This document shows, in pieces, positions 36,635 through 62,215 of a DNA stretch of 64,000 nt. Under the pieces are notes generated by a model, which saw only the letters and a list, made by a program, of their open reading frames with translations, was not told where the DNA came from and did no database searches. Made by a program: the position numbers and the translations under genes. Position 1 is the stretch's first letter, and each line of letters begins with the position of its first letter. Source of the DNA: a virus; the IMG/VR virus record IMGVR_UViG_3300042482_000702, positions 258,478 to 322,477 of that record; one strand, written 5' to 3'.

Positions 36635-38242
36635 TTACTTACTTAACACTTTTTCTTTCATTTTATCAGTAGCTGTCTCTATTTTAGTTTTAACACCACC
36701 TAATAGGGGACATATAAGAGTAGATAAATTTCTCTCAACAGATTGTCCGAAATCGGAATGTTCTACCATTTCAGCCAATGAGTTTCTTAATATATCATAA
36801 AACGGACCTGTCATACCAACAGATTTTTTAATTTTATCCGCAGCTTCTTCAACAATTGATTTAGTTAGAACAGGCACTAGAAAATTACAATTAGTTAATT
36901 TACCGATATCTGTAAGACCAACGTTACCTACCGCTTTAACAACTATACCACCAATCCATCCATCAGTATCTAACGGTGTTAATTTAGTAATAAGTTGTTT
37001 TGCCAAATATTCTTTAAAGTATTGGAATGTTCCTTCAGCACCAGTTCCGAATAAGCCTTTTAATGCGTCCCAGAATTGCTCGTTAATTAATTGTTCTCTG
37101 AATCCTTGAGAATTTAAATAATTCGATTCAATAAGTATTTCATTGAAGAATTTATCTCTTTGAGATTCTGTTTCAAGTATTCTATTCTCAATTAAAAATT
37201 TGGTTCTATTTCCAATAATATTAGATTCTGTGATTAAATTTTGTTTTTTAAGTTTAGAACTTTGATATAGACTTTCTTTAATCATTGTTTTTAATTCGTT
37301 TTGAACTGACTCATTTTGTATTCCTCCGATGTAAAACAAATAAGGACTTGGTGATGGTAAATATTTGGGTTTATCACCTCTTAATAATTTTACAATGAAT
37401 TCAAATCTTAATTTATTTCTAAATAATTTGAAAGGGTTTTTATCATTAGGAACACCTGGATAATCAGCTTTATCTATTCCGGAGAAACTATTGTACTTAC
37501 CACTACCATAACAACTATTAATTTGACCTTGCATTTTTAAAACATCCGGTCTTGCATCTAAATTATTGTATGAGTATTGGAATGCGGAATCTAAATAAGT
37601 TTTTAATATGGTATTACAAGTAGTCTCGTCTAATTTCATATCCACAGTAGTTGGTGTTTCCATTGCTGCTTGTGGTAAATAAATTGAGATGTTCTTCCAT
37701 CCATAATCAGAATTTAATTGTTCTGACATATTTGGTTGATACTTGATTTGTAAATCAGAAGTTTTAGCCGGTAATGAGTTTTCAGGTTTTATTTTTAATA
37801 CTTCTGTACTTTTAAACACATTAGTTAAAACATCATTCCATTTTTGGAATATGTCCGACACGGCATTTTGGTCAATTAATCCTCGTAATGTTGTTGTAAT
37901 TTGTTTTGCCTTTTCAGTATCAGTTTTGGTTATACCAAAATTTGCTAAAATATCATTGTATTTTCCTCCAACGGTATCACAAGACCATCCTCTTTTTTCT
38001 TTTGTTGAAATATTTTCAGCAACCATTCTTCCACTACCATCAGGAATTAAATCTAAATAAAAAACAATATCTTGATTTTTACTATTTTTACCTGACCAAA
38101 CTCTCTTATTTTTGTAGTCTGAGACAGTACCGCCAACTAACCATTTCGGAAAACATCCCGCACGATTAAATTCAATCAATTTAGCTCTATCGGCAATTTT
38201 TGGGTCCGACACTTGTTCTTTTATAATCTCTCTCTTTTTCAT
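36635..38242 (-). CDS. tagged two-domain virion-type protein with multi-site linker
   Basis: 535 residues from MKKREIIKEQVSDPK; this ATG lies 1 base after the upstream stop codon, so earlier in-frame ATGs are rejected. The tag ends at IIKE. The N-terminal part (to about residue 325) is soluble. A linker at about 325-395 carries a series of (I/L)xE sites (MIKE, LITE, LIE, ILE, LINE). The rest (from QFWDALKGLFG) is hydrophobic, with membrane-active helices. The arrangement suggests a precursor cut by a prohead protease into two pieces delivered with the DNA. No enzymatic motif is recognised. Confidence 0.65.
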   Translation of the reverse strand: MKKREIIKEQVSDPKIADRAKLIEFNRAGCFPKWLVGGTVSDYKNKRVWSGKNSKNQDIVFYLDLIPDGSGRMVAENISTKEKRGWSCDTVGGKYNDILANFGITKTDTEKAKQITTTLRGLIDQNAVSDIFQKWNDVLTNVFKSTEVLKIKPENSLPAKTSDLQIKYQPNMSEQLNSDYGWKNISIYLPQAAMETPTTVDMKLDETTCNTILKTYLDSAFQYSYNNLDARPDVLKMQGQINSCYGSGKYNSFSGIDKADYPGVPNDKNPFKLFRNKLRFEFIVKLLRGDKPKYLPSPSPYLFYIGGIQNESVQNELKTMIKESLYQSSKLKKQNLITESNIIGNRTKFLIENRILETESQRDKFFNEILIESNYLNSQGFREQLINEQFWDALKGLFGTGAEGTFQYFKEYLAKQLITKLTPLDTDGWIGGIVVKAVGNVGLTDIGKLTNCNFLVPVLTKSIVEEAADKIKKSVGMTGPFYDILRNSLAEMVEHSDFGQSVERNLSTLICPLLGGVKTKIETATDKMKEKVLSK

Positions 38243-38243
38243 A

Positions 38244-39275
38244 TTAAAATTCATTATTATCAACATTATTTACATAAGCCTCAGCATCAGGTATTGGTCT
38301 TTCTTCTGGTGCTGGTGCTGGTCTTTCTTCTGGTGCCGGAGCTGGTGTTGTTCCACCACATATTTTACTAACATCAGCATCGGTAAATCCATTTGGAAAA
38401 CCTTTAGCAACTAACGCCGCTTGTGTTTTAATCCAAAATTTACCGTCTTGGATTAACCCTAAACATGCCTGAACTTGTCCAATAACACCTGTTGGTGATG
38501 TTTTACACCCTTTTTTATAAGTACCTCTACCTGTACAATCAATATATCTATTTGTACCAGGGGGTGTTACAGGTGGTGTTACAGGTGGTGTTACAGGTAA
38601 ATCGTCCGGAACTGTGCTCATAGTTGATAAAATCCACCAAGCAATCAATCCCGCGGCCAAAAGACCGACACCCCATTTAGCAGCGGAAGATTTAACTATT
38701 TCTTTAAATGATAACCCTTTCTTTACCATTACTTCAACTTCTTCAGACCCACCTTCTCTAACAACTTTTTCTAACCCTTCTTTACTAGCCTTAGCAAAGT
38801 CGTCGGCACCGGCCTTTATTGTTTTACTAGCACCTCCTCTAGTTCGTTTGGTAATACCATTAACTATTTGTCTAGAGTTGTTTCTAAGTTGATTTGTAAT
38901 ATTGATAACAATACCCCTATCCGCCAATTCTTTACTACCCTGTTTTGCCGCTGCTTCAGCCTCTTCTTGAGCTAATCTAATTAATTCCGCTTTAATACCG
39001 CTTTTTTGGGTGTCGGTTAATGATTGTAAACCCGCTTTTTTCATAACAGATTTTTGAGCTGCGCGTTCTACTGATGAGTAAACTTTTCCTTGTTTTGAAA
39101 TCACCCCGACACCCTTCATGGCGGCTTGAACTTCAGCCCTTAAAATAGATAATATTTCTGTTTCGGCCACGTTTTTAAATAAACTACCTAACGCACTTTC
39201 GTTTAAAGTGAATTTATTTTCAATACCGATAAGTTCCGATATTCTATGTATTTCTGTAATTAAATTTTTTTCCAT
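38244..39275 (-). CDS. tagged virion membrane protein with Pro-rich spacer
   Basis: 343 residues. N-terminal tag MEKNLITEIHRISELIG...TLNE ends at about residue 26. An Ala/Lys-rich helical region (30-190) leads to one transmembrane helix (about 200-222), a VTPPVTPPVTPP spacer, a small domain with a CTGRGTYKKGCK cysteine pair, and a PAPEERP repeat tail. This resembles an ejected virion protein that spans a host membrane. Confidence 0.65.
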   Translation of the reverse strand: MEKNLITEIHRISELIGIENKFTLNESALGSLFKNVAETEILSILRAEVQAAMKGVGVISKQGKVYSSVERAAQKSVMKKAGLQSLTDTQKSGIKAELIRLAQEEAEAAAKQGSKELADRGIVINITNQLRNNSRQIVNGITKRTRGGASKTIKAGADDFAKASKEGLEKVVREGGSEEVEVMVKKGLSFKEIVKSSAAKWGVGLLAAGLIAWWILSTMSTVPDDLPVTPPVTPPVTPPGTNRYIDCTGRGTYKKGCKTSPTGVIGQVQACLGLIQDGKFWIKTQAALVAKGFPNGFTDADVSKICGGTTPAPAPEERPAPAPEERPIPDAEAYVNNVDNNEF

Positions 39276-39296
39276 TTTTATAATATAATAATATTT

Positions 39297-40724
39297 TTAT
39301 GTTGTTGGTTGTTTTGCAACCTTTGATAAACTTTTTTTAAGAAAATCAGTACCTTGTTTAGCCATTTTACCCATAGTTTCTTTGGCTTTAGGTGGGATAT
39401 ATTTTGAAATTCCTCTCTCATCCATTGTTAGACCCATGGCCATTAAACCACCATTATCTAATTTTCCATCAGTTCTTAATTTTTCGTATTTACCTGTTTC
39501 AGGGTCATTATTGAAACAAGTTGCAAATTTTTTAACACCGTCCTCAGTTTCTTTGGTAAATGTATTTCCGTTAGGTATTTTTGTAATATCAACTTTACAC
39601 GCAGGAAACATTATATTATGAATGTCTCTAAAATACTTATTCACGTTTGAAACATCATCTCCGGTGTCGTTAATTCCTAACACAATTGGTCTAACTAATA
39701 ATCCAACACCGACACCCGTAACAACTGCTGTAACACCTTGTTTAGAAAATAGTTGAGATATAAATGTATCAACACCCTTAATAATAGAATTAAAACCTGA
39801 GATTACTTTAGTAACGATTGTTTTTGCTCCCGGAATATGTTTAATAATTAAATTACCAAATGATGATAGTGATGATGAAATGCCCGGTAAAGATTTTGAT
39901 AATTTTGTTAGGGTATTTTTCAAAAATCCACTAGCCGGTTTACCCGCTTTGACCGCTCTTAAAGCAGTCTTAGTTGTAAGACCTGCGGCAGCGGCAAATA
40001 CAAATGAAATTAAATCAATTAATAACCCTGAATACGGGTCTTGTTGTCTTTCGGGGTCAGCTGGGTCAAAATTACCTGAAATAATCTCAAATACATCTAA
40101 AATAACTATCATTGCCCAAACTAATTTATTTGCTCCCGTTGTAACAGGTATCATTGCCGTTACAACATCTATAACAGTCCCCGCTACGGTATAAACATTT
40201 TTTCTTATCCATCTTAATGCCGGTAAAAACCCATTCATTAAGGCTTTCTTGGCTAACTCAGCCGCACCACTCGCAATGGTACTACCAACTTTTTTGGTTG
40301 CATTCCAAGCCGACTTAGCGGTATTTTTTATCCAATCTGATTGTTCATTAATTAATTCATCATCATTAATTAAAGATAACGACTCTAAAAATAAATCTTT
40401 AGTCCATCTAATAGAATTTAAAACACTTTCTTCAATAATATTAGCACTATTTTTATAATTTTCTTTAATTATTTCATTAATAACCCAAGTATTTTCCCAT
40501 ATATTACCAATAAAACCTAATTCTTTAGAAATTAAATTATCCGCCCAAATTAAATATTTTTCATCTTCAGTAATGACAAAATCAAAAACATAACCTTCCT
40601 CAATCATTGGTAAAAATTCTTGATTTTCAGTTAAAGTTTTTCTACTATCATAGTTCATCATAAGAAGAGCGCGATTAAGGACTTCATTCCTTTCATTTAA
40701 ATTATATTTGTTATTATAAGCCAT
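39297..40724 (-). CDS. tagged hydrophobic virion-type protein
   Basis: 475 residues from MAYNNKYNLNERNE. Its first 33 residues are closely related to those of the next gene upstream (NLNExN..L.R.LLMM.YD..KTL.EN), while the bodies differ. The body has several amphipathic or transmembrane stretches (AGTVIDVVTAMIPVTTGANK and VVTGVGVGLLVRPIVLGI) and basic helices. The start overlaps the upstream gene by 11 bases. A pore-forming or internal virion protein is likely. Confidence 0.65.
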   Translation of the reverse strand: MAYNNKYNLNERNEVLNRALLMMNYDSRKTLTENQEFLPMIEEGYVFDFVITEDEKYLIWADNLISKELGFIGNIWENTWVINEIIKENYKNSANIIEESVLNSIRWTKDLFLESLSLINDDELINEQSDWIKNTAKSAWNATKKVGSTIASGAAELAKKALMNGFLPALRWIRKNVYTVAGTVIDVVTAMIPVTTGANKLVWAMIVILDVFEIISGNFDPADPERQQDPYSGLLIDLISFVFAAAAGLTTKTALRAVKAGKPASGFLKNTLTKLSKSLPGISSSLSSFGNLIIKHIPGAKTIVTKVISGFNSIIKGVDTFISQLFSKQGVTAVVTGVGVGLLVRPIVLGINDTGDDVSNVNKYFRDIHNIMFPACKVDITKIPNGNTFTKETEDGVKKFATCFNNDPETGKYEKLRTDGKLDNGGLMAMGLTMDERGISKYIPPKAKETMGKMAKQGTDFLKKSLSKVAKQPTT

Positions 40725-41250
40725 ACCTAGATTTAACAACACAAAGGTTGTTTTTTTTATTTTTAGGGTCTTGACACCAAGTTTGTATTTGAGTTTTAAC
40801 AGGATTAATAACTGAATCTTTTAAATCATCTGCAAACCATTCACCTTCAATTGCTTCCCAAAATGTTTCACCTCCTACAGCAGGATACGATTTAATCATT
40901 GCAACACTATTCGGTAATATGTTAAATGTTTTTGAAATAATGGAGGGTAATCCTTGGTCAGGGTCCATATCTCTCGTAATACTACCAATACCTCTCTTTC
41001 TATCATTACTAATAGCCATAAAAAACGCTTTAGCATTTACCTCAGGCTTTATTGTTGGGTTTCCAAAAATATTAGGAATTTGCTCAGGATGAGCCATAAA
41101 ACTTTTGGTTAAATTTGTGAAATATTCATCTTCAGTTTGTTCAAATATTAAAGAAGTATTTTCAACTAAAGTTTTTTTATTATCATATTTCATCATAAGA
41201 AGAACTCGTTTAAGAGCATCGTTCCCCTCATTTAAATTAAATTTTTCCAT
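40714..41250 (-). CDS. tagged virion-type protein
   Basis: 178 residues with the same N-terminal tag family as the downstream gene, ending at LVEN or at FEQ. The body has a WEAIEGEWFADDLKD segment and a C-terminal WCQDPKNKKNNLC cysteine pair. A TATTTATA late motif lies at 41274-41281. It may be a lysozyme-like or structural protein, but no catalytic motif is clear. Confidence 0.65.
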   Translation of the reverse strand: MEKFNLNEGNDALKRVLLMMKYDNKKTLVENTSLIFEQTEDEYFTNLTKSFMAHPEQIPNIFGNPTIKPEVNAKAFFMAISNDRKRGIGSITRDMDPDQGLPSIISKTFNILPNSVAMIKSYPAVGGETFWEAIEGEWFADDLKDSVINPVKTQIQTWCQDPKNKKNNLCVVKSRYGL

Positions 41251-41310: not shown

Positions 41311-41553
41311 TTACGTTAATGGGTTTGCCTTTCCCCTCGTTAACCCTGATTCCCATTTTTCACCTTTTAATCCTAACATATTTGCTGGACCTCTAGTTAA
41401 ACCTGTTGTCCATTTTGTTACGGTATTAGTTGAACCACCCTCGGAACTAGCACCATCGACAGGAGCTTCTTCTTGTTCCCCAAGTTCTTCATTTGAATTT
41501 GTTGTTGTGTATTCTTTCATTAAAGAAATAATACGGTCAATATCTGTAATCAT
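41311..41553 (-). CDS. tagged small protein with WxxGLTRG repeats
   Basis: 80 residues. Tag-like start MITDIDRIISLMKEY, a Glu/Ser-rich spacer with ELGEQ, then two copies of a W-x2-GLTRG-x-AN motif (about 46-57 and 67-78). Function unknown; the repeat suggests a binding peptide. Confidence 0.6.
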   Translation of the reverse strand: MITDIDRIISLMKEYTTTNSNEELGEQEEAPVDGASSEGGSTNTVTKWTTGLTRGPANMLGLKGEKWESGLTRGKANPLT

Positions 41554-41933: not shown

Positions 41934-42311
41934 TTAATTGATTGGTAAATTTGGGGATGTTAAAACATCAATCATTTCTGATAATCTTTCCGATTCTATT
42001 TCACTTTGAAATCCTTTTGTATACCAATTACAATCACCTTTAATACACGATTGTTTTAATTTAAATTGCACGATAATTTTATTACTAGGTTTTAAAACTT
42101 TTAAGACAGCACCATCTTTCTTAAATTCAAAAAAGAAATTTCCCGCTCCTTGTATTTTTTTAACTAATACTTTTCTACCTCCGGTGTTATTGGCATCGGT
42201 GTATCCCCTACTTCTTAATTTTGTTTCCAAATTTGAATTGGATTGTTCATTAATAAGTCGTTTTATAATACTAATTAAATCACTTTCTTTTAATCTAATA
42301 ATTTTTTTCAT
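41934..42311 (-). CDS. tagged small basic protein
   Basis: 125 residues. Tag MKKIIRLKESDLISIIKR ending LINE at residue 22 is nearly the same as in the 60122 gene, whose body is unrelated. The body has a single domain with CIKGDCNWYTKGF. Function unknown. Confidence 0.65.
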   Translation of the reverse strand: MKKIIRLKESDLISIIKRLINEQSNSNLETKLRSRGYTDANNTGGRKVLVKKIQGAGNFFFEFKKDGAVLKVLKPSNKIIVQFKLKQSCIKGDCNWYTKGFQSEIESERLSEMIDVLTSPNLPIN

Positions 42312-42312: not shown

Positions 42313-42945
42313 TTAATTATATTTCATAAATCTTTTGAACATATCTAAAGATTCGGTAATGTTTGAAATGATGTCATCTTGTTCACCTTGTTCAAACTCA
42401 TCAACCTCATCTTCAAGACCAAATAAATCCATAATATTTAAATCAAAATCGTCATCACTATCATCAGGATTGGTTAACGCCATTATATCGTCATCATCGT
42501 CAAATAATTCATCGTCTAATTCCTCAAAATCATCATCTTCAAATGTTCCGTGGTCTAAATCATCATCACCATCACCAATCATATCTAATTGTTCCCCTAA
42601 TGAAACATAATGTCCTTCGTCTTCTTCACTTTCAAAGGATTCTTCCGGTTCATATTGAGAACCTGGTGATATATGTCCTTGTTCCTTTGGTTCTTCATCA
42701 GAAAATAATCCAGTACTTTTTCCGTCGGCATGCATTTCGTTAATTTTCATAGTTTTATATGATGAAACTTCGCCTTTATTGTTAACGGTAACACCTTCTT
42801 TATCGTTTGCGTAATCTTGCGTATATAAAGGTTGGTTTTTCTCTGGTTGAGCGTAACTAGTTACGTATCCATCATAAATCTCTTTATGTTGGTCAAGGAT
42901 ATTATTTCTTTCCTCGTTGGTCATTTTGAAAAAATATGCATTCAT
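42313..42945 (-). CDS. acidic scaffold-like tagged protein
   Basis: 210 residues. The start MTNEERNNILDQHKE matches the QEK.RIL..H tag subtype of the 194 and 46870 products. The rest is strongly acidic with long Asp/Glu runs, and ends NITESLDMFKRFMKYN, a tag-like C-terminus. It could act as a core scaffold. A TATTTATA motif lies at 42963-42970. Confidence 0.6.
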   Translation of the reverse strand: MNAYFFKMTNEERNNILDQHKEIYDGYVTSYAQPEKNQPLYTQDYANDKEGVTVNNKGEVSSYKTMKINEMHADGKSTGLFSDEEPKEQGHISPGSQYEPEESFESEEDEGHYVSLGEQLDMIGDGDDDLDHGTFEDDDFEELDDELFDDDDDIMALTNPDDSDDDFDLNIMDLFGLEDEVDEFEQGEQDDIISNITESLDMFKRFMKYN

Positions 42946-43634: not shown

Positions 43635-44264
43635 ATGAAAAGGTTATTAATAATTAACGAGCAACAAAAAAAATTGATTTTAACTGAATCAATTATCAAT
43701 GAATTTACAAAATCAATAGAAGAAGGGTATGACTATACCTCTAAAGTATTGAAAGAAGTGAATGAAAATTATAAATTAAATTTTGAGTTTCTTATAACCT
43801 GGGGAGCTAGTATTGGAGGTTTTATCTCTCCAATAAGTGAATTTTTGCAAGGTAGATTCCCTGAAATTTCTGATTTAGATTTGAGTTTAATTTTAACGGG
43901 TATTATTGCGGTTAATTATATTGATAATAGAAAAAGTGTAGAAAAAGTACTTAAACTAATTAGAGAGGAGGGATTATCCGATATTTTTAAAGTTGGGTTA
44001 GATAAATCAATTGAGTTGAAAGAGGTTATGTTTAAATTTTTAGAGAGTTTGAATATAACATTATTTAAAATCACAAAAATGATGTCTTATGCTTTTATCA
44101 TACCTATTTTAGTTATGTTATATACAATGGTGATAAATAAACAAATTAATGAGTCTGATGCTAAAGAAATAACTTTAAGAATTTTAGGTAGTGGATTAGT
44201 TAATGTTGGTGGAATTATGATAAAAGATTTAATTAGTAAATTAATTGCTCGTTTTAAAGGTTAA
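43635..44264 (+). CDS. tagged multi-spanning membrane protein
   Basis: 209 residues. Tag MKRLLIINEQQKKLILTES ending IINE, then three to four hydrophobic segments (about 55-72, 82-98, 150-170 and 185-200). Divergent from its neighbours on the minus strand. A membrane protein carrying an internal-virion tag suggests membrane insertion after ejection. Confidence 0.6.
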   Translation: MKRLLIINEQQKKLILTESIINEFTKSIEEGYDYTSKVLKEVNENYKLNFEFLITWGASIGGFISPISEFLQGRFPEISDLDLSLILTGIIAVNYIDNRKSVEKVLKLIREEGLSDIFKVGLDKSIELKEVMFKFLESLNITLFKITKMMSYAFIIPILVMLYTMVINKQINESDAKEITLRILGSGLVNVGGIMIKDLISKLIARFKG

Positions 44265-46241: not shown

Positions 46242-46754
46242 ATGAAAAAAATAGTTATAAACGAAAAAGAACTTCGTAAATCAATTAGACAACACCTATT
46301 GGAGCAATCACAGGTAGACGCTAAAGACAATAGAGAAGAAAAACAAAGATGTGTTGCCGGTAATGTTATTCCGTTAGACACAATGATTGGCCCATCCAAA
46401 AATTTTAACAATTATACTTCTACCGTTCTTAAAAGAGATGGTGGTATTCACGGAATGGTTGATACTTTAGATATGTTAAAAACATTAAGATTACACCAAG
46501 GAATCGAAGATTCTGGAGAACATTTATCGTACAATCTAATGAACCATTTAAATACTTTTAGAAATAAAAATTATTTTGACGAAACAAACAGTGAATGTCA
46601 AAAAGCTATGGATAAAGTTATTGAATTGTATAAAGAAAATGACCACGGTGAAGACCTTGTTAAAGACATTGAAAAGGTGTTAAGACATCCTGACCCTTCA
46701 CCTAGAGCTAAAGAATACCTTAAAAGATGTTTAATCTTAGTTAAGGAAAAATAA
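46242..46754 (+). CDS. tagged hypothetical protein
   Basis: 170 residues. Tag MKKIVINEKELRKSIRQH ending LLE before QSQ. The helical body contains a GGIHGMVDTLDML segment and a cysteine-containing C-terminal helix. TATTTATA at 46215-46222. Function unknown. Confidence 0.65.
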   Translation: MKKIVINEKELRKSIRQHLLEQSQVDAKDNREEKQRCVAGNVIPLDTMIGPSKNFNNYTSTVLKRDGGIHGMVDTLDMLKTLRLHQGIEDSGEHLSYNLMNHLNTFRNKNYFDETNSECQKAMDKVIELYKENDHGEDLVKDIEKVLRHPDPSPRAKEYLKRCLILVKEK

Positions 46755-46869: not shown

Positions 46870-47505
46870 ATGAAAAAACACATAATCACCGAACAAGAAA
46901 AAAATAGAATACTTAAATTACATTTAAGTGAAAAAAATATTAACGAGGATTTAACATCTTATTACGGTGGAGATGAATTTAAAAAAATGTTAGATAAAAT
47001 GAGTGAACCGAGTCCAATGTTTGACTACACCTCTGAAACTTCTTTATCTCCAAAAAAGTTTAATGAATTTTATGATAAAATAGAGGGAAAATTATTTGCA
47101 TCATTTGGGGGTTTAGGTAAATATGTTGAATTTATTAGGGATTATCCCGCGTCACCTGAAATGAATTTAATTTTAAAAAAACATCCCGTGATTGATACGT
47201 TTTCATCTTATGATGACTATAAAAATTCGCCATATTATGAAATGTCAGAAATTTTTTTTAAACCTAATAGGTATCATACTGAAAACGATAAACGCAGGTC
47301 TTTTGACCATTTTATAGATAAATTTGGAGACCTTATAATTAAAAAAGGGGGCGACTTTAATAAAGAAAATGTTAAAACATATAGAGATAAAACAGAAAAA
47401 ATGTCACCTGAAGATAAAACCCGAGAATACACAGTAGGTATTAACAAAGTTCATCAAAATTTTGATGATGAAGGAAATGTTATCAGTAGAAAAAACATTA
47501 ATTAA
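46870..47505 (+). CDS. tagged hypothetical protein
   Basis: 211 residues. Tag ITEQEKNRILKLHLSEKN ending INE at about residue 27, of the same subtype as the 194 and 42313 products. The soluble, charged body shows no recognised motif. TATTTATG at 46849-46856. Confidence 0.65.
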   Translation: MKKHIITEQEKNRILKLHLSEKNINEDLTSYYGGDEFKKMLDKMSEPSPMFDYTSETSLSPKKFNEFYDKIEGKLFASFGGLGKYVEFIRDYPASPEMNLILKKHPVIDTFSSYDDYKNSPYYEMSEIFFKPNRYHTENDKRRSFDHFIDKFGDLIIKKGGDFNKENVKTYRDKTEKMSPEDKTREYTVGINKVHQNFDDEGNVISRKNIN

Positions 47506-49460: not shown

Positions 49461-49744
49461 TCTTCATTAAATTTACTTATTTCGTCCCAAATTTCTTGTG
49501 ATGTTGAAACTTCACCCATTTCCATAGTAAAACTCTTTAAACCTCTTCTATAATCATTACTAAACCATTTACCCTCACCATTTAATCTGACATAGGTTCT
49601 GAAACTATTTAAGTTCCAATGTGGTTTAATTTCACTATTTGGGTTATGAGCGCAATCACCATACCAAACATCAATACATCCCTCAACACAAGGAACTCTA
49701 GTGAATTTAACCCACCCTTCTTCTATTCTTTCCGGTGTTATCAT
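49457..49744 (-). CDS. hypothetical protein
   Basis: 95 residues with a Cys/His/Trp cluster (CVEGCIDVWYGDCAHNP). A metal site is possible, but no family is recognised. Overlaps both neighbours by 4 bases. Confidence 0.55.
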   Translation of the reverse strand: MITPERIEEGWVKFTRVPCVEGCIDVWYGDCAHNPNSEIKPHWNLNSFRTYVRLNGEGKWFSNDYRRGLKSFTMEMGEVSTSQEIWDEISKFNEE

Positions 49745-51625: not shown

Positions 51626-51913
51626 TTATTTATTTTTAAATTTTAAATATTGTTCATTATGTTCTTCTTCTAATTTTTCAGGGGCAAACTCTTCCCAATG
51701 CTCCACAATTCTTTGAGCACATACCTTGTGTAATTCTTCCAAAAACGCAACACAAACATTACCTTCTAAAGCGTCAATATATCGATTGGCTTGTTCTTCG
51801 TAATCTGTATATGAACCGGTTTCATTTGATATAATAGCTTCTTCTAATGATTCTTGTATCTGATGAAGAAATATATGAACATATATACGACTTCCTAATT
51901 TAATTGATTTCAT
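51626..51913 (-). CDS. hypothetical protein
   Basis: 95 residues, helical and acidic (EEHNEQYLKFKNK end). Overlaps the upstream gene by 4 bases. Function unknown. Confidence 0.55.
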   Translation of the reverse strand: MKSIKLGSRIYVHIFLHQIQESLEEAIISNETGSYTDYEEQANRYIDALEGNVCVAFLEELHKVCAQRIVEHWEEFAPEKLEEEHNEQYLKFKNK

Positions 51914-52449
51914 ATCTTATTTCTTTTTAAGTAGCCGATTTCCTCTCTTAATAATTGGATATCCTTTGCACCCTGCTCTTGTTGCCATTTAGCACCCATT
52001 AAAAATATATCATATTCTTCCATTTTATAAGGGAACATTCTTTCAGCAGCTTCTTCAAGTGTTTCTTTTTTATGGTCTTGTATCAATTGCTTTATACCTT
52101 TCTTTTTTTCTTCGTTCCAAACTTGTTCTGGTTGAATCTCTTTTTCAGCAAAATACATAAACTCAAGACATTTATACACACTCATTCCACATCTCCAACT
52201 ATCCATAATGTATTCATCGTACTTTTCAAAATCCTCGTCGGTATATTTGTAATTGTCCTCTGTTCGTCTATCTTTTAATCTTATCAAATATTCGTCAAAT
52301 GTTTCATTATACAAACCTAAATCCTCGTCATCGTTCATCATATCAATTAGATGTTGTTTTTGTTCATCTTTAAGTGGAGAATGTTCCCAAGTATTTTGAA
52401 GACCATTTCCTAAATCATCGTATTCCGGATTGTCATAACATTTACTCAT
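51910..52449 (-). CDS. hypothetical protein, paralogue of 49741 product
   Basis: 179 residues from MSKCYDNPEYDD. An upstream in-frame ATG is rejected because the TATCTTTG promoter box (52469-52476) lies inside that extension. Shares YLIRLKDRRTE...YKYTDEDF and VYKCLEFMYFAEKE with the 49741 product. It leads the 48.5-52.4 kb operon. Confidence 0.62.
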   Translation of the reverse strand: MSKCYDNPEYDDLGNGLQNTWEHSPLKDEQKQHLIDMMNDDEDLGLYNETFDEYLIRLKDRRTEDNYKYTDEDFEKYDEYIMDSWRCGMSVYKCLEFMYFAEKEIQPEQVWNEEKKKGIKQLIQDHKKETLEEAAERMFPYKMEEYDIFLMGAKWQQEQGAKDIQLLREEIGYLKRNKI

Positions 52450-52479
52450 AATTATTTCTTTTATGGGACAAAGATAAAC

Positions 52480-52512
52480 AAAAAACCCCAATAAAAAAAT
52501 TATTGGGGTTAA
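52480..52512. terminator. terminator between dnaK and the small-gene operon
   Basis: AACCCCAATAA...TTATTGGGGTT hairpin downstream of dnaK. Confidence 0.7.
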
Positions 52513-52531: not shown

Positions 52532-54406
52532 TTATTCAGATTTTATCTCTTCAAATTCAACATCAGACACATCAATATCGGATTCTGAACCATCACCTTC
52601 ATTAACACTTGAGTATAAATCTTGAGATATTTGTTGGAACTTTTGAGACAATTCTTCCGACAATACCTTAACATTTTCAATATCTCTACTTGAATGAGCT
52701 TCTTTCAATTTATCCATTGATTCAGTTATTGTTGTTTTTTGTTCTTCAGAAATTTTATCTTCCAAATCCGTCAAAGATTTACCTGTTTGGAAAATCAGGT
52801 TGTCAGCAGAATTTAATGTATCCACATCCTCTTTAAGTTTTTTGTCCGATTCAGCATTTTCTTCAGCCTCCAATTTCATTTTTTCAATTTCCTCTTGAGA
52901 TAATCCTGAAGATGCCTCAATTCTGATTGATTGTGTTTTGTTTGTTGCTTTATCCACAGCGGAAACATTAATAATACCATTCGCATCAATATCAAAAATC
53001 ACTTCAATTTGAGGTGTTCCTCTCATTGCCGGTGGTAACCCATCTAAATGGAATCTACCGATTGTTCTATTGTCTTTTGCCATTGGTCTCTCACCTTGTA
53101 ATACATGGATTTCAACAGATGGTTGGTTATCAACAGCCGTTGAGAACACTTGAGATTTTTTAGTTGGAATTGTGGTGTTAGATTCAATAAGACGAGTTAA
53201 AACTCCCCCCATTGTTTCAATACCTAATGATAGAGGAGTAACATCTAACAATAATACATCTTTCACATCACCAGCCAACACACCACCCTGAATAGCCGCT
53301 CCTAAAGCAACAACCTCATCCGGATTAACACCTTTTGATGGTTCTTTACCGAAGAACTTTTTAACAGCTTCCTGTATTGCAGGGATTCTAGTAGAACCAC
53401 CAACAAGGATAACCTCGTCAATATCAGTAATCTTTAATTTAGCATTTTTCAATGCCGATTTACACGGAGCAATAGTTCGTTTAATCAAATCACTCGCAAG
53501 TTGCTCAAATTTAGCCCTTGTTAATGTCTTCACCAAATGTTTTGGTCCGGTAGCATCAGCACTTAAATAAGGTAAGTTAATTTCTGTTTGAGGAGAAGAA
53601 GATAATTCAACTTTAGCTTTCTCAGCACCTTCTCTTAACCTTTGTAACGCCATTGGGTCTTTTGTAATGTCTAAACCATCATTATCTTTTTTAAATTCAT
53701 CAACTAAAAAGTCAATAATAATTTGGTCAAAGTCATCACCACCTAAATGGGTATCACCATCAGTTGATAGTACTTCAAACACACCACCACCTAATTCAAG
53801 GATGGACACATCATGCGTTCCACCACCACAATCAAACACAACAATTTTACTATCACCTTTTTTATCAATACCATAAGCCAATGCAGAACTTGTAGGTTCA
53901 GATATAATTCTCAAAACATTTAATCCAGCAATTTGACCTGCTTCAATTGTTGCTTGTCTTTGAGAGTCATTAAAATAAGCTGGTACGGTGATAACCGCGT
54001 CAGTGATAGATTCACCAACATAATCTTCAGCAGTTTGTTTCATTTTTTGTAAAATGATTGCTGAAATTTCTTGTGGAGAGTATTCTCTATCGTCAATTTT
54101 AACTCTTGGAGTGTTTCCACTACCTTTAACCACAGAATACGAAACTTTAGATAGTTCATTTACGATACTATCATAGTTAGCTCCCATGAATCGTTTAATT
54201 GATGATATAGTTTTTGTTGGATTGGTAACCGCCTGTCTTTTTGCTGGGTCACCAACTTTTCTTTCTCCATCAGTTAAGAAAGCAACAATTGAAGGTGTTG
54301 TTCTTTTACCTTCGCTATTTGCGATAATTATGGGTTCGCCGCCCTCCATAATGGCACAACACGAGTTTGTTGTGCCTAAATCAATTCCTAGAACTTTTTT
54401 GCTCAT
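52532..54406 (-). CDS. dnaK: DnaK (Hsp70) chaperone
   Basis: A full-length 624-residue Hsp70. GIDLGTTNS (7-15) starts the nucleotide-binding domain; [22 protein letters not shown] and the linker [16 protein letters not shown] follow, then the substrate-binding beta-domain and the helical lid. It ends VEFEEIKSE. Some normally conserved residues differ (CGGGTHDVS for the usual LGGGTFDVS). No DnaJ or GrpE is in the window, so it would rely on host or distant phage partners. It may assist virion protein folding. Confidence 0.95.
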
Positions 54407-54579: not shown

Positions 54580-54954
54580 ATGAAATTATTTTTAGACGAC
54601 CACAGAGAACCTTACGATGTGTTTAAAGACACAATTGACCCAATTTATGAAAATAATAATGATTGGAAGGTAGTTAAGGATTATTTAGAATTTGTGGATA
54701 CCATTTTAGAACACGGATTACCGGAAGTAATATCGTTTGACCACGATTTATCTCAAAATCATTATTTACCCGAAAATCAAACAAATATCAGTTATGACAC
54801 CATAAAAGATAGGACAGGATTTGACGCCGCATTATGGTTAATAGGGTATTGTAGAATGAACCATACTGGATTACCAAAAATTAAAGTTCATTCCGCCAAT
54901 GTTGAAGGTAAAAGGAATATTGAGAGATTATTTTTCGGAAACAAAGGCTCTTAA
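54580..54954 (+). CDS. cyclic-phosphate processing receiver-like (cREC) protein, second copy
   Basis: 124 residues. FLDDHREP (4-11), VISFDHDLS (about 48-54), TGFDAA (about 85) and VHSANVEG (about 108) are the receiver landmarks seen in the 12561 product. Likely part of RNA-end processing. Converges on the 54928 gene with a 27-base overlap. Confidence 0.7.
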   Translation: MKLFLDDHREPYDVFKDTIDPIYENNNDWKVVKDYLEFVDTILEHGLPEVISFDHDLSQNHYLPENQTNISYDTIKDRTGFDAALWLIGYCRMNHTGLPKIKVHSANVEGKRNIERLFFGNKGS

Positions 54955-55509
54955 TTTAACTTTATCCCAATTTTTAAAGTCCTCGCCATTATCACCAAGT
55001 TTTAATGTGGACATAGCTCTATGCCATCCTTCAACAATCTCATACTTACCATGTTTATCTATATGAACAATTATTGGTTCGTTTTTACCTGTTGGGGTGG
55101 CTAGTTCTCTTTGTATTTCCATCCTTTCTTTATCGTCCTTAACAAAATAAGCATCAACTTCACCAAATTCTCTCTCAATGAAGGAGTTTATATTGTTTTC
55201 AACAAAATCTTCAGGATTAACTGTAATTATCTGTAATTTCCACGGACCTTTTAAATAGTTATAAATCATTTTACCTAAAAAAGGTATTGGGTCTCCGTGA
55301 TATTGTCCCATCACGGTTTTATAACTCTCCTCATCACCACATAAAACATTTGTTACAAATTCTTTTAAGATATATTCCGGAGTATTTGGGAACTCTTTTT
55401 TGAATCTATTATAAAATGATTTACATACTGAAGATGTTGGTTTATAGAGGGGGATTGATTGGATATCCTCCCATAATTTATATTGTTGTTCCGTTATTAT
55501 TATTTTCAT
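54928..55509 (-). CDS. tagged protein with ParB/sulfiredoxin-like domain
   Basis: 193 residues. N-terminus MKIIITEQQYKLWED is the tag shared by the next six genes. The C-terminal domain (about 140-193) has EPIIVHIDKHGKYEIVEGWHR, whose GWHRA (161-165) matches the GxxR nucleotide-binding box of the ParB/Srx fold. Such domains bind or hydrolyse CTP or act on DNA. A packaged DNA-acting enzyme is the inference. Confidence 0.65.
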   Translation of the reverse strand: MKIIITEQQYKLWEDIQSIPLYKPTSSVCKSFYNRFKKEFPNTPEYILKEFVTNVLCGDEESYKTVMGQYHGDPIPFLGKMIYNYLKGPWKLQIITVNPEDFVENNINSFIEREFGEVDAYFVKDDKERMEIQRELATPTGKNEPIIVHIDKHGKYEIVEGWHRAMSTLKLGDNGEDFKNWDKVKLRAFVSEK

Positions 55510-55510: not shown

Positions 55511-55816
55511 TTAAACTTGTTCTACTCTGTAACATTTTTTACCTCTAAACCCAAACTTTTTATTAGCCCATTCTAATAATAAATCACTAACCTCATCATT
55601 ATCAAATCCAAACATATTACGAATAAAATCCCATATATCATGTTTAACACGTAAAGTTTTAGTTCTACTAATATAAGACATCTTAAACATTCCTTTATCC
55701 GCAACAAAAATGTCTTCATATTCAGGGTATCTTAATAATTCTAAATTGGGATAATCATTCTCTAACCATTTAATAGCGATTTGACTTCTTTTGCTCTCTG
55801 TTATTAATATTTTCAT
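55511..55816 (-). CDS. tagged small protein
   Basis: 101 residues from MKILITESKRSQIAIKW; this ATG overlaps the upstream TGA (TGATG), so an ATG two codons earlier is rejected. The body is basic, with a C-terminal KKFGFRGKKCYRVEQV. Function unknown. Confidence 0.62.
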   Translation of the reverse strand: MKILITESKRSQIAIKWLENDYPNLELLRYPEYEDIFVADKGMFKMSYISRTKTLRVKHDIWDFIRNMFGFDNDEVSDLLLEWANKKFGFRGKKCYRVEQV

Positions 55817-56172
55817 CACCACGCTTTACAGCTCCAAAACTTTGCGGAAGTTTTTGGACCAGGATTTTTACAATTATGTCTTGCTCTAAAAGATTTACGA
55901 TGTTTGGGACTTTGAACTTTAATTCTCATATTAGGGTCACCAAAATTAACCTTAACAACATTTCCTTTTGCGTTCTTAACATATACCGAGCGTTTTTTAG
56001 GTCCGTCAGGTGTTAAAAATGGTTTATTAAGGGTCACTTTTCGTCCCTGATATTCAGCTTCAGTTAGTAAATCACCAACAACAAAGTTAGTTTCTTCAAC
56101 GGAGCCATAAAAACTATCGTCTAATTCATTAAACAATTTTTCGTACTGAGATTCTGTTATTATTATTTTCAT
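55816..56172 (-). CDS. tagged protein with conserved phage C-terminal module
   Basis: 118 residues. Tag MKIIITESQYEKLFNE. The C-terminal 75 residues (VTLNKPFLTPDGPKKRSVYV...FGDPNMRI...SFRARHNCKNPGPKTSAKFWSCKAW in separated blocks) form a basic module with an HNC...WSC cysteine pair that I recognise as recurrent at the ends of phage head-related proteins. Exact function not known. Confidence 0.65.
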   Translation of the reverse strand: MKIIITESQYEKLFNELDDSFYGSVEETNFVVGDLLTEAEYQGRKVTLNKPFLTPDGPKKRSVYVKNAKGNVVKVNFGDPNMRIKVQSPKHRKSFRARHNCKNPGPKTSAKFWSCKAW

Positions 56173-56173: not shown

Positions 56174-56632
56174 TTACATTCTATTTTTTATATCGTTTAA
56201 CATACTTTCATCAAATTCAACTCCGTGTCTTTCTTGAAAATGACTTAACAATAATCTAATTGGTTCATAATACCCTTTATCTTGTAATAGTATATACGCT
56301 CCCAAATCAGCTTCTAATTCATCTTTATTATCTCTAGGCCCATCGTGTCCTAATAACACATGAGTAATTTCATGAGCCTCAATAAATTTTAAAATATCTG
56401 TAGCATCTGGTTGTCCCACCAATATCTCACCATCAATAATGATTAAATTTTTACCAGGAACCATAAACCCAAACCCATACTCTTCAAAATATTCTTTAAC
56501 CTGTTCATATAATGGGTCGTCTTCAAACACAACAACAACTGTCACACCTTCTAAAAATTCGCTGGTGTATTCCAATTGGGTGTCTTCTTTAATTATTGTT
56601 CTATATTGAGATTCTGTTATTATTAATTTCAT
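56174..56632 (-). CDS. tagged zinc metalloprotease
   Basis: 152 residues from MKLIITESQYRTIIKE; a start 10 codons upstream is rejected because the tag begins here. HEITH (87-91) is the zinc site and DELEADLGAY (about 104-113) gives the third ligand, as in ImmA/IrrE and Gluzincin-type proteases. The tag ends at IIKE. A protease carried in the head could be injected to cut a host target; no target is visible. Confidence 0.75.
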   Translation of the reverse strand: MKLIITESQYRTIIKEDTQLEYTSEFLEGVTVVVVFEDDPLYEQVKEYFEEYGFGFMVPGKNLIIIDGEILVGQPDATDILKFIEAHEITHVLLGHDGPRDNKDELEADLGAYILLQDKGYYEPIRLLLSHFQERHGVEFDESMLNDIKNRM

Positions 56633-56636: not shown

Positions 56637-57791
56637 TTACCATTTATAATTATCCTCGCCAAACATAATTACAAAATCCGCCAATACAAGGTTTAATTTT
56701 GGAAATTTTTTATTAAGCATATTAAGAAATAATTTATTACTTAATTGAGCCATACCATTATAATAATTAATATTATTTTGTCTAAGAATATCACCTATTG
56801 ACTTGAATATTATTGTAAGTTGATTGCCTTGAATTACAAATTTTTTATTATACTCATCAATATTTGATTTAAACCATCTACGTCCATTATCTAATTCATC
56901 ATCTAATGTTATGTTATTAACAATATCATTTAAAATATATTTAATACCTTTTATTGTATTTTTTTCATCATCTGTTATCTCTAAACCTAATTTTTCTTTA
57001 TAATAAATTGGTATTAACTTTTCACTTAACCCTTTTTTTAGTAAAAATTTAGTTAAATTAAGAAATAATTTACTTTCACTAACGTCATCATCATTTTTAT
57101 TCATAAATTGACCAGAATCATAGTGAAATTGATAAGGTGATAATGGGTCACCCATATTATAAAAAACATAATAGGATGAACCAGGGGAATCATTAAGATA
57201 TCTCTTAAAACTATCAAATCCTGCCATAGTGCAAATAGATACTATCTGACCTTTATCTCTACCCGAACATTTACCAAGAATCTCTCGATATAAATTCCAA
57301 ACTTCTTTACTATCCTTCACTTCCGGTGGCACTTGAAAAGATTGTAATCCATCAACCATACCCAAATATTTAATACCGACCGATTCTAATTTTTGAATAT
57401 CGTTTGTGCTAATTAAGTTTTTCTTATCGGAAACATCACCTTGTTTGTTATCTTGCTGTTTTATTAAAATATCTTTTGATTTTCTTTCAAACTCAAAAAC
57501 GTCATTTATCGTTTTAATTTGACCTAAATCTTTAATAGGGTAATGTTGTTTAAATTTTTCAAAAACATTAAAGTAATTTTTAAATTTATAAGCATCCTCA
57601 TATTTTATGAAACCGGAACTTAACATTTTCAACAACCATCCAACATAGAATGGTTTTTTTATGTTATTAAGAATTTCGTTAAATTGATTTTCAGGAATTA
57701 ATCCTGAATCAACGTACTTTTCTCTAAACTCTTCTTCGGAATATGCTTCAGTCAGTATCCTATACTGACTTTCGGTTATTATTAATTTCAT
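56637..57791 (-). CDS. tagged large hypothetical protein
   Basis: 384 residues. Tag MKLIITESQYRILTE, then a body with FDSFKRYLNDSPGSSYYVFYN at about 190 and a helical C-terminal half. No catalytic motif is recognised. The stop sits 4 bases from the next start. Confidence 0.65.
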   Translation of the reverse strand: MKLIITESQYRILTEAYSEEEFREKYVDSGLIPENQFNEILNNIKKPFYVGWLLKMLSSGFIKYEDAYKFKNYFNVFEKFKQHYPIKDLGQIKTINDVFEFERKSKDILIKQQDNKQGDVSDKKNLISTNDIQKLESVGIKYLGMVDGLQSFQVPPEVKDSKEVWNLYREILGKCSGRDKGQIVSICTMAGFDSFKRYLNDSPGSSYYVFYNMGDPLSPYQFHYDSGQFMNKNDDDVSESKLFLNLTKFLLKKGLSEKLIPIYYKEKLGLEITDDEKNTIKGIKYILNDIVNNITLDDELDNGRRWFKSNIDEYNKKFVIQGNQLTIIFKSIGDILRQNNINYYNGMAQLSNKLFLNMLNKKFPKLNLVLADFVIMFGEDNYKW

Positions 57792-58180
57792 AACTTATTT
57801 ATACCCCCTTTAAAAGTTGATTGAGCGTTTTCATCGTATGTTTTATTAAACCACTCTAATAAATCATTCTCAAACCACATTGAATATTGTTTAGCTCTAT
57901 TATGAATTTTTGTATTAACATATAACCTATTCGGTGCTTCAGAACCTACTTCACCAACACCGGATTTCCAATCAGATGGTGAATCAATTATTAAAGTAAA
58001 AAATATTTCATTTGTTTTTGGGTCATAATATCTACGAGTAACACCTCTTACCGAACTTTTAATTCTATTTATTTTTAAATTTCCAATATTTGGATATCTG
58101 ATTTTTAAAAATGTGTCAAAGTCCGGTTTATCATTTTCAACCAATTTTTGATATTGTGATTCTGTTATAATTAATTTCAT
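57788..58180 (-). CDS. tagged small protein
   Basis: 130 residues. Tag MKLIITESQYQKLVE. The body is beta-rich (TNEIFFTLIIDSPSDWKSGVG) with a C-terminal helix. A GATAAATA late-motif variant lies upstream (58194-58201). Confidence 0.62.
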   Translation of the reverse strand: MKLIITESQYQKLVENDKPDFDTFLKIRYPNIGNLKINRIKSSVRGVTRRYYDPKTNEIFFTLIIDSPSDWKSGVGEVGSEAPNRLYVNTKIHNRAKQYSMWFENDLLEWFNKTYDENAQSTFKGGINKL

Positions 58181-58198: not shown

Positions 58199-59290
58199 TT
58201 ATTTTTGATTCCAACCAAGTTGGGGATAATTACCGGTTGTTATTATATTACCATTAGTATTTTTACTTTTTAGTCCATAAAAAACTTCGTGATTTATTTC
58301 GTGATAAGTTTTAGTGGTATATGATATTCTAACTAATTTTATATTATTATTTTGACAATACGAGTTTTTTTCTTTGTCACTATTAATTCGTTTTCTAAAT
58401 TCTTCTTCACCACCAAAATATTCGTTTGATTGAAAATGTTGTTTCCCATCATATTCAAATATGATACCGGTTTCAGGTATGTAAAACCCTTCATTTTTAC
58501 CAACCATATAATTATTTTCATTATACGGTAGAAAAATATCAAATTTATAAAACTTACAAGTTAAACTATTTTTACAATCTTTATATGTATGTTGACCTTG
58601 TCGTGGAATATCTTTGAACCCCAAATTTTCTAATGTATCTCTAATTGCTTTTTCACCCCACCATTCTCTTAATTTTCCTAATTTTTTTTGTATTTCATAA
58701 ATTTGGTCTAAAACATTTTGAAATTTTCCAGTTTTATCGGATTTTTTATTATTATGGAACCAAATATAAGTATCACGGGTAAATTCACCACCATTTTTTA
58801 CGTGATTTAAAATTTGCTCAATTTTTTTATTTTCTAATTCTTCCTGTATTTTTGTAATTTGGTCTAAACCATTTTGAAATTTTCCGGTTTTATCGTATAA
58901 TATTTTACTATATAACCAAAGATAATTATTGTCTTTATTATCACGTTTAAATTCACCACCATTTTTTACGTGATTTAAAATTTCCTCAATTTTTTCATTT
59001 TCTAATTCAATCTTAATTTCCTTAATTTGGTTTAAAGCGTTTTGAAATTTTTGTTCTTCGGTTTTATCGGATTTTTTTTTATTATATAACCACTTATAAT
59101 AATCGTCTTTTGCCCTATTACGTATAAATTCACCACCATTTCTTACGTGATTTAAAATTTCCTCAATTTTTGCATCAATTTCTTCAGGAGTTTCTTTTGG
59201 TTTTCCACCCTCATTAATCTTACCAAACACAACATCTCTCGGTTTATTAACCAATGTCCTATACTGACTTTCTGTTATTCTAATTTTCAT
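58199..59290 (-). CDS. tagged nuclease with three internal repeats
   Basis: 363 residues. Tag MKIRITESQYRTLV...KINE ends at about 27. Three repeats of about 55 residues (41-100, 101-156, 157-205), each with EEILNHVKNGGEF and W...DKTGKFQN..DQI, form probable DNA-binding units. The C-terminal domain has FD (250-251) and EYDGKQHF (279-286) followed by a K-rich helix and VRISY, the PD-(D/E)XK pattern of phage nucleases. A packaged endonuclease is likely. Confidence 0.75.
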   Translation of the reverse strand: MKIRITESQYRTLVNKPRDVVFGKINEGGKPKETPEEIDAKIEEILNHVRNGGEFIRNRAKDDYYKWLYNKKKSDKTEEQKFQNALNQIKEIKIELENEKIEEILNHVKNGGEFKRDNKDNNYLWLYSKILYDKTGKFQNGLDQITKIQEELENKKIEQILNHVKNGGEFTRDTYIWFHNNKKSDKTGKFQNVLDQIYEIQKKLGKLREWWGEKAIRDTLENLGFKDIPRQGQHTYKDCKNSLTCKFYKFDIFLPYNENNYMVGKNEGFYIPETGIIFEYDGKQHFQSNEYFGGEEEFRKRINSDKEKNSYCQNNNIKLVRISYTTKTYHEINHEVFYGLKSKNTNGNIITTGNYPQLGWNQK

Positions 59291-60121: not shown

Positions 60122-60544
60122 TTATTGTTGTTTTCGTCTCGCAACCAATTGGGGAAGAATTGGTTGTTCCGGAAAACCACTGCCACGTTTTGAAAATTTA
60201 TCGGAATGAATTTTATTAATTCGTTCCTCTATTCTTGGAACAAACCGACAATATTGATGAGGTTGGTCATCATATAGATAATTTTTACAATAATCTTTGG
60301 CAATGGACAACAATATTTCTGTGTCCGCTAATAATTTACGTAAATCGCTTTTTTCAAAATCATTATAATCTGTCCGAGCTTTATTGAGTTTTTCTCCATG
60401 AGAAGTCCAATCTTCATCAGACATTTTATCCATTTGTTCGGGGCTTAATGTCCCAAATCCATCACTATCAAATGGGGCCTCATTTATTATTTTCTTAACC
60501 AAACTCGTTAAGTCCGATTCAGATAATCTTACAACTTTTTTCAT
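60122..60544 (-). CDS. tagged small protein
   Basis: 140 residues. Tag MKKVVRLSESDLTSLVKK ending IINE, matching the 41934 product. The body is helical with a CKNYLYDDQPHQYC segment. TATAAATA on plus (60557-60564) is its late motif. Function unknown. Confidence 0.65.
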   Translation of the reverse strand: MKKVVRLSESDLTSLVKKIINEAPFDSDGFGTLSPEQMDKMSDEDWTSHGEKLNKARTDYNDFEKSDLRKLLADTEILLSIAKDYCKNYLYDDQPHQYCRFVPRIEERINKIHSDKFSKRGSGFPEQPILPQLVARRKQQ

Positions 60545-60615: not shown

Positions 60616-60618
60616 TGT

Positions 60619-61512
60619 ATGAACTTACAAGAACAGACAAATAGGATTAAAGAGATAATGGGTGTTATTTCTGAAAATGATAATTTTATTAAAACTATCA
60701 AAAATTTTGGGATACCCGATACCATCAAATATGTTGGCAGTTATGATTTATTTAAACAAAGTAAATTTTTTGATTCTGTTTTTAAAATGGTTGATGATTT
60801 ATTAAAAGATTTTACTGATTTAATAATTGTGGATAATTATTCTGACGGTAATTATGACGATAAAAATTCATCAAGAGCGGTTGCTTATGGTGAGGGACAT
60901 AATGATTTTAAAATTAAACCCGGGTATGTATATTTTGATTGGTATAAATCCCCCATGAATAAACCAACAGCTACGTTGAGTGTGGATGAAAAATTATCTG
61001 ATGTGTTAAGTTCATTGGATTTACCGGATAATCTTATGAAAGATATTTTGGTTAAATGGGTTAATAAATATTACGATAATATCCCCCCAATCGACAATGT
61101 GAAGTATGGTAAAGTTCTTGGTTATGGGAATGATGAAACTGATGACCATAGTTCTCTGATACCACCACCTCATATCCCTTTTGATGATAATATTCCATCA
61201 AGAAAAATAACTGAAGATGAAATTATTGAACTTTTAAAAGATGCTGCGGAAAAATTTCCTAAAGAAAATTGTGATGATTTAATGGATTGGATGAATATTG
61301 TGTTTACTTATGTTGAAGATTACATTGATGATAATAATATTGATACCGAAATTAAAAATAAATCAATATTTAGTTTGAATTCCGATAATCTTAGAAAAAA
61401 ATATGATTATGTTTTAAGGGATATCTGGGGACCTGATGATGATTATCCATTTTTGGATGACGTTAGAGATTTTGATATGGGTAACTCTTTAAATCATCTA
61501 CGAAATAATTAA
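60619..61512 (+). CDS. tagged acidic hypothetical protein
   Basis: 297 residues. Tag MNLQEQTNRIKEIMGVISE, then an acidic body with IPPPHIPFDD and many Asp. It resembles the C-terminal RIKxLL tags of 7519 and 8088 in its RIKEIM core. Function unknown. Confidence 0.62.
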   Translation: MNLQEQTNRIKEIMGVISENDNFIKTIKNFGIPDTIKYVGSYDLFKQSKFFDSVFKMVDDLLKDFTDLIIVDNYSDGNYDDKNSSRAVAYGEGHNDFKIKPGYVYFDWYKSPMNKPTATLSVDEKLSDVLSSLDLPDNLMKDILVKWVNKYYDNIPPIDNVKYGKVLGYGNDETDDHSSLIPPPHIPFDDNIPSRKITEDEIIELLKDAAEKFPKENCDDLMDWMNIVFTYVEDYIDDNNIDTEIKNKSIFSLNSDNLRKKYDYVLRDIWGPDDDYPFLDDVRDFDMGNSLNHLRNN

Positions 61513-61550
61513 CAAATAAAAAACCCCTTCTTTACAGAGGGGGGTTTATT
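61513..61550. terminator. terminator
   Basis: AAAAAACCCC-TTCTTTACA-GAGGGGGGTTT hairpin with following T run. Confidence 0.7.
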
Positions 61551-61555
61551 TTTAA

Positions 61556-62215
61556 TTAAAAATTATCATCTTCATTAAAATCTGATTCAACATACCTTGA
61601 AAGGATATAATCACCATAATTATCTTTTATCAATTCCTCAAGTTCGTCATAATTGTTGTCTTCATAGTTATAATTTGTTAAATCATCAATAACCCAAGAA
61701 ATAATATTGTCAGCAAATTCAAATTCATCACCAAAATATGTTCCTTCTTCTTCTACTTCATTAATATATTTTTCAATAAGGGATTCAATAATTTCTTCTT
61801 CATCTAAATCATTATCTTGCTCAAATAAATTATCGTCTTTTTCTTCATTAAAATCACCTTCTTCGTAATCAAAATCACCTATTTCAGTTCCTCCAAATTT
61901 TGCTCCATAAGGTATATCTGTTGGATGATATTCAAACCCTAATTCTTCTCCGTGTTCGCTTGGATGATATCCTACTCCGTGTTTATAAGTCCCAACAACT
62001 TTACCGGTGTCAGAATGTTTTACTATTCTTTCAGGTCGTTCTTTTTCCGTATTAAGATTTAATTTTTCACCATCCCATAAATCTTCATCTAATTCAGTAT
62101 CTAAATAACCTTCAGTGGTGTAATCATAATTTTGTTCTGAAATAACTCTTCCTGCTTTATACCCAAAAAGGTATTTCATATTTTTAATATCTTCGTTAAT
62201 TAATTTCTTATCCAT
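61556..62215 (-). CDS. tagged acidic protein
   Basis: 219 residues. Start MDKKLINEDIKNMKYLFG...ISE, then a strongly acidic body (DEEEIIESLIEK) with a HPSEHGEELGFEYHP repeat-like segment. Possible scaffold or core protein. Confidence 0.6.
   Translation of the reverse strand: MDKKLINEDIKNMKYLFGYKAGRVISEQNYDYTTEGYLDTELDEDLWDGEKLNLNTEKERPERIVKHSDTGKVVGTYKHGVGYHPSEHGEELGFEYHPTDIPYGAKFGGTEIGDFDYEEGDFNEEKDDNLFEQDNDLDEEEIIESLIEKYINEVEEEGTYFGDEFEFADNIISWVIDDLTNYNYEDNNYDELEELIKDNYGDYILSRYVESDFNEDDNF

Follow-up and report, generated by a model that had tools for sequence, protein, structure and literature searches.

Exchangeable N-terminal tags on unrelated proteins of a large T4-like phage as predicted capsid-targeting propeptides

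What are the related N-terminal segments good for that precede otherwise unrelated proteins at the end of a 322,477-base T4-like phage record? The window analysed here, positions 258478–322477 of this record (64,000 bases), encodes a whole series of such proteins, for which a sequence-only reading had proposed head delivery of the T4 type. From the analysis of the window and of the rest of the record, read as loci L003–L016, we consider it probable (roughly 0.8) that the segments are capsid-targeting propeptides, which would be cut off in the head by an S77 protease, the cargo then being ejected with the DNA. The genes on which the proposal was built were all found again in their places, apart from small corrections of the start (ATG at 56632 for gene 56174 and at 55816 for gene 55511). 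They are given below in window coordinates, a slash marking the end of the tag.

194..697, minus strand: tagged gene, type D, ISQEEKSRILEMH...TINE/
36635..38266, minus strand: tagged gene, degenerate, MNFNMKKREIIKE/Q
38244..39275, minus strand: tagged gene, type C-like, MEKNLITEIHRISELIG...LNE/S
39297..40742, minus strand: tagged gene, type F, NLNERNEVLNRALLMMNYDSRKTLTE/N
40714..41250, minus strand: tagged gene, type F, MEKFNLNEGNDALKRVLLMMKYDNKKTLVE/N
41311..41553, minus strand: tagged gene, C-like degenerate, IDRIISLMKE/Y
41934..42311, minus strand: tagged gene, type B, MKKIIRLKESDLISIIKRLINE/Q
42313..42945, minus strand: possible type D tag, MTNEERNNILDQHKE, without [ILV]xE site, the weakest member
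43635..44264, plus strand: tagged gene, type A-like, MKRLLIINEQQKKLILTE/S
46242..46754, plus strand: tagged gene, type B-like, MKKIVINEKELRKSIRQHLLE/Q
46870..47505, plus strand: tagged gene, type D, MKKHIITEQEKNRILKLHLSE/K
54928..55509, minus strand: type A, MKIIITEQQYKLWE/D; weak ParB-like match in the body, homologs elsewhere with a type C tag
55511..55816, minus strand: type A, MKILITESKRSQIAIKWLE/N
55816..56172, minus strand: type A, MKIIITESQYEKLFNE/L; body of family phrog_7595
56174..56632, minus strand: type A, MKLIITESQYRTIIKE/D; metalloprotease-like body (HEITH...H), tag-free homologs known
56637..57791, minus strand: type A, MKLIITESQYRILTE/A; distant homolog at L308:10150–12063 with a type C tag
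57788..58180, minus strand: type A, MKLIITESQYQKLVE/N
58199..59290, minus strand: type A, MKIRITESQY...INE/G; HNH/homing-endonuclease-like body (phrog_559, E 4.7e-18)
60122..60544, minus strand: type B, MKKVVRLSESDLTSLVKKIINE/A
60619..61512, plus strand: type C, MNLQEQTNRIKEIMGVISE/N
61556..62215, minus strand: C-like degenerate, MDKKLINEDIKNMKYLFGYKAGRVISE/Q

The row of seven adjacent genes described as sharing ITESQY is real, with the exception that two members deviate from this core (ITEQQY in 54928 and ITESKR in 55511), and membership of genes 36635, 38244, 41311, 42313 and 61556 is based on degenerate matches. In the AlphaFold model of the 56174 product, pLDDT is about 46–58 over the tag (residues 1–20) and about 80–97 in the body from residue 21 onwards; a Foldseek search with this model gave no significant match. 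The 54928 product was modelled poorly (mean pLDDT 53).

For establishing whether the likeness exceeds chance, N-terminal 35-mers of the whole record were scored all against all without gaps. At a pair threshold of at least 40, 163 N-terminal pairs were obtained, compared to 29 with residues 46–80 of these proteins and 13 after shuffling the N-termini, and in 152 of the 163 pairs the bodies are without detectable homology, which bears out and enlarges the claim of related tags on unrelated bodies. About 50 genes of the record are tagged. The biggest cluster comprises 41 genes (types A, B and D plus a few chance members) and the second one six genes with MNLQENxxRIxxMMG; outside the window, tagged genes lie at 3.7–64, 80–84 and 161–162 kb of the record. 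Most of the genes listed for the window can be assigned to a class. Consensus sequences are MKxIITESQY for class A, MKKIIRLTESDLxxIVKRVINE for class B, MNLQENxxRIxxMMGxxxE for class C, ITEQEKxRIL for class D and NLNExNxxLxRxLLMMxYD for class F, while class E (MRDLIKKILREE) occurs in the record outside the window and class X (FDLKKFLVENKLT) was first met in the cultured Flavobacterium phage immuto. The same comparison applied to 150 of the 169 kb of T4 shows no comparable excess (22 N-terminal versus 19 internal pairs, with homing-endonuclease paralogs among the best), whereas immuto gives 21 versus 2 pairs.

As the sequence-only reading had suggested, the motifs were followed into relatives, and they are found elsewhere in the record as well as in IMG/VR. 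Searching the latter with degenerate DNA patterns resulted in at least 120 stretches each for types A and B, 103 for type C and 82 for type X. With strict patterns, 846 tagged proteins were counted in the fetched loci, this record and immuto, and those of the fetched loci fall into 352 body families; totals are restricted to these patterns because loose ones include false positives, such as MDLSKLTMDELISLRNKI taken as type C. In a 257-Gb collection of cellular genomes, the type B pattern matched only two stretches, one of them at L519:6395–6429 on a 113-kb Prevotella MAG contig, which may be a phage contig within a rumen MAG. In cultured phages, tblastn with the type B tag gave no match. In immuto, whose host is Flavobacterium sp. 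LMO8, tagged genes are located just ahead of the terminase gene; in the proposed reading, the products of its gp003, gp076, gp077 and gp092 and of neighbouring genes would be found in the head. Literature searches returned nothing relevant for the tag motifs and, for families resembling capsid-targeting sequences in Bacteroidota phages, only papers on T4 and giant phages.

The prohead protease of T4, gp21, cleaves after L/I-X-E and removes propeptides of 10–19 residues from the internal proteins (PMC9026906). The statement that most tags end at (I/L/V)xE holds for 20 of the 21 listed genes, but carries little weight alone, since such a triplet at residues 9–34 is present not only in 40 of 52 tagged but also in 143 of 320 untagged genes. 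More telling is where conservation stops. In type B, it amounts to 1.0–5.1 bits per column up to the Glu (89%), with Ile, Val or Leu two residues earlier, then drops to 1.1 bits in the following column and to about 0.1–0.3 further on; [ILVMF]xE ends at one and the same column in 139 of 169 non-redundant proteins, compared to a background of 2.1% per position. Types C and X follow the same pattern, conservation again halting at [ILV]xE: in type C, the motif is placed at two adjacent columns in 84% of 122 sequences, and in type X the figure is 88% of 74. Type A tags have a nearly invariant ITE core, with conservation gradually lost from about residue 16 onwards, and 48% of them show another [ILV]xE close to the usual tag end; hence, type A tags may be cleaved at the invariant ITE or not at all. 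Within the bodies, internal [IL]xE sites show an observed/expected ratio of 0.94 in tagged versus 1.18 in untagged proteins, with [IL]xxE being lower as well, so that the specificity of this depletion is not clear.

Homologous bodies behind different tag classes were found in 33 independent cases from 28 body families of strictly tagged proteins. The terminal Glu is aligned within one residue in 19 of these exchanges, with tags of 11–26 aa, and not so in the other 14, which are partly shared-domain or spurious alignments. Mean identity rises from 15% over the ten residues preceding the Glu to 47% in the bodies. Examples are MKIIITESQYKFLIE/NQEVVDRILDKIS (L114) versus MKKIIRLTESDLTRIVNRVINE/NQEEVDRILDKIS (L352), MNLQENINRIHQMMGGLITE/ESESKKDSMKSML (28023 in this record) versus MKDLIRKILRE/QTESKKDAIKSLI (L184), and MKKIIRLTESELILLVKRVINE/GLHDTSWQNDEGDKITLMDLL (L252) versus MNLQENISRIKQMMGLLTE/GLHDTYWQNEDGDKITLIDLL (L349). 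In addition, the start of ten untagged homologs lies no more than a few residues from the point where the tag ends. In the 56174 family, tagged MKIIITENQYKLLKE/MEKDLISYESNF (L291) stands opposite tag-free MDDDLIAYPSTF (L023), which looks as though the tag had been added in front of an old start. Judged from these alignments, the tag is a separable module.

A gene for a gp21-like protease, named in the sequence-only reading as something to look for beyond the window, is indeed present. Profile searching of the record identified a Peptidase_S77 prohead protease (PF03420, E 6.5e-24) at 242014–242739, which in alignment retains the ELNHP, SSRG and DxVxxPS regions (H, S and D regions) of T4 gp21, as well as a Gp23-type major capsid protein (PF07068, E 1.1e-73). 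Together with Portal_T4, both are grouped at 238–246 kb, about 12–20 kb before the window start (protease and Gp23 at 16–20 kb). A scaffold candidate is encoded at 240171–241625 and a 249-aa protein at 243519–244268. An S80-type protease reached only 16 bits in the record against a cut-off of 23.4, while the S77 match is strong. The propeptide of the Gp23 protein ends with SFLINE/ATSDG, aligned with SFLTE/AEIGG of T4 gp23, and INE/A is unvarying across 79 relatives of this capsid protein, the residues directly downstream being variable. As immuto is among the relatives found with the capsid protein, a host from the Bacteroidota is probable. The tags, with 11–30 aa, differ from the propeptides of more than 100 aa of the phiKZ/SPN3US type. 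In the set of tagged records larger than 140 kb, S77 scored above the cut-off in 33 of 40. The other seven are fragments lacking the head module or with it cut, six being without Gp23 and one having a Gp23 match truncated by the end of the contig, so that S77 is encoded in every tagged large record spanning the head module. In one tagged record, the 268,739-base contig holding L034, two S77 proteases are encoded, at 31 and 233 kb.

A 683-aa ClpB/ClpC-like double AAA ATPase is encoded at record 256566–258617, ending at window position 140 and facing the tagged gene 194. The window also contains 21 tRNA genes (5568–35452), 20 of which form a single cluster at 24.3–35.5 kb, and a complete gene for a DnaK-like chaperone (624 aa, 52532–54406) near the seven type A genes. 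In the vicinity of the latter gene, two paralogous small proteins (49741–50166 and 51910–52491) share EYLxRLKDRRTExNxKYTDEDF.

Alternatively, the tags might be localisation or partner-binding peptides acting in the infected cell, for example at the replication compartment, the membrane or in late transcription, the tagged proteins never being packaged and the terminal [ILV]xE belonging to an amphipathic helix. Short amphipathic segments able to dock to a partner can indeed be seen in types B, C and E, and type A often is without a second site. However, conservation halts precisely at [ILV]xE in three classes that are unrelated and differ in length, exchange and loss occur at this very point, the same motif ends the Gp23 propeptide, and the S77 protease is encoded in each record with a complete head module. 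This alternative is therefore regarded as improbable.

A TATTTAT box 9–29 bases before the start is present in 26 of 52 tagged versus 52 of 320 other genes of the whole record (p 3.7e-7), its position peaking at –11/–12 and at –20 to –25. Among the untagged genes having it are those for the protease, the scaffold candidate and several virion proteins. Within 60 bases upstream, the box precedes 42% of tagged versus 25% of other genes in other loci. The box is a candidate for a late promoter in this group of phages, and its distribution, albeit a post hoc find, would fit late expression alongside the head genes.

Most tagged bodies are without known family. Among those that can be assigned is an Acb1-like anti-CBASS domain (PF23474, E 3.5e-7) behind a type C tag at record 29610–30173 (L004:10610–11173), a product which by its tag is predicted to be in the virion; a PDB sequence search with this protein found nothing. 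In the clade, cargo domains comprise sigma-70, lysozyme, M23, GH19, PolyA polymerase, SET, GNAT, thioredoxin and ART-PolyVal as well as a weak vRNAP match, with sigma and ADP-ribosyltransferase cargo counted at the level of the family scan and not of single loci. PADLOC scanning of the tagged proteins gave only weak single matches. This cargo bears on a further explanation, according to which the tagged proteins are core or scaffold components for head assembly that are mostly degraded by the protease and not delivered. Such a fate is known for the T4 core proteins gp22, gp67 and gp68, which are degraded by gp21 (PMC9026906, PMC5694885), and the scaffold candidate of the record contains many [IL]xE sites. 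On the other hand, the bodies are enzymes or enzyme-like (HNH nuclease, Acb1-like, sigma, ADP-ribosyltransferase, lysozyme), turn over fast and differ among relatives, unlike a structural core, which makes a role confined to assembly quite unlikely.

Finally, the swapping of tags between genes and the clustering of tagged genes in the record might point to a cassette at the DNA level, be it a regulatory element or a recombination hot spot, that spreads by recombination and encodes a peptide without function. This was rejected as very improbable since almost every synonymous codon occurs at the invariant tag residues (Thr four, Ser six, Leu four to six) and selection thus acts on the protein.

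The tags, their boundaries, the exchange at the boundary, the protease and the matching capsid propeptide motif can all be read from the sequence itself. Taken together with the co-occurrence of S77, they support the proposed T4-type delivery into the head, and a T4 capsid-targeting-sequence system, greatly expanded and modular, is the best explanation, agreeing with every expectation that could be tested at this level. For the tagged proteins, we infer core binding, cleavage and ejection as follows. Late in infection, the tag would pull each protein into the core of the assembling prohead, where the S77 protease would cut after [ILV]xE and free the mature body within the head; the latter would then be ejected into the next host along with the DNA. 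Classes A–F in this record and X in immuto relatives would be interchangeable in this job, so that cargo genes could gain, lose or swap tags at the cleavage point.

Beyond this record, we lean towards the view that an interchangeable N-terminal head-address code with multiple tag classes is in use in a whole clade of large T4-like phages, most of it uncultured. At least 50 different effectors, including those for counter-defence and transcription takeover, would be loaded per virion, new ones being recruited simply by gaining a tag of 11–25 residues. If true, this would be the largest predicted repertoire of phage-injected effectors and one readable from sequence alone, whereas such proteins are normally identified singly, by proteomics. 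With tags as head addresses, hundreds of unknowns from environmental phages would become predicted injected effectors whose roles in anti-defence and takeover can be tested, and the tags themselves would provide short, portable loading signals for phage heads. The existence of several exchangeable classes also raises the question of which component of the prohead core reads the tags.

The closest known counterparts are T4 IPI, IPII, IPIII and Alt, with which the tagged proteins share a short N-terminal segment, the L/I-X-E motif, the S77 protease and the Gp23 shell. T4 IPII and IPIII have unrelated bodies behind a common MKTYQEFIAE, as is the case with the tags here, and the type A core MKxIITE recalls MELITE of T4 Alt. 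However, T4 has four such proteins with one or two tag types, compared to about 50 per genome, at least six exchangeable classes and hundreds of cargo families in the clade described here. Many processed and ejected head proteins cut after Glu, as predicted for the tagged proteins here, are known from the giant phages phiKZ, SPN3US and 201phi2-1 (PMC5694885, PMC9026906). Several propeptides of these giant phages exceed 100 residues in length, and a common module that can be exchanged between proteins has not been described for any of them; moreover, phiKZ combines an S/A-X-E motif with an S80-type protease instead of [ILV]xE with S77. Polyvalent proteins (PMC5512222) bring in many phage-delivered effector domains, and ART-PolyVal is among the tagged bodies, but they carry many domains per chain, in contrast to many small single proteins each with its own tag. 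Anti-CBASS activity is provided in T4 by Acb1 (gp57B), and in T4 it is the adjoining gene, ipI, that bears a targeting sequence, while here the Acb1-like domain itself is found behind a type C tag.
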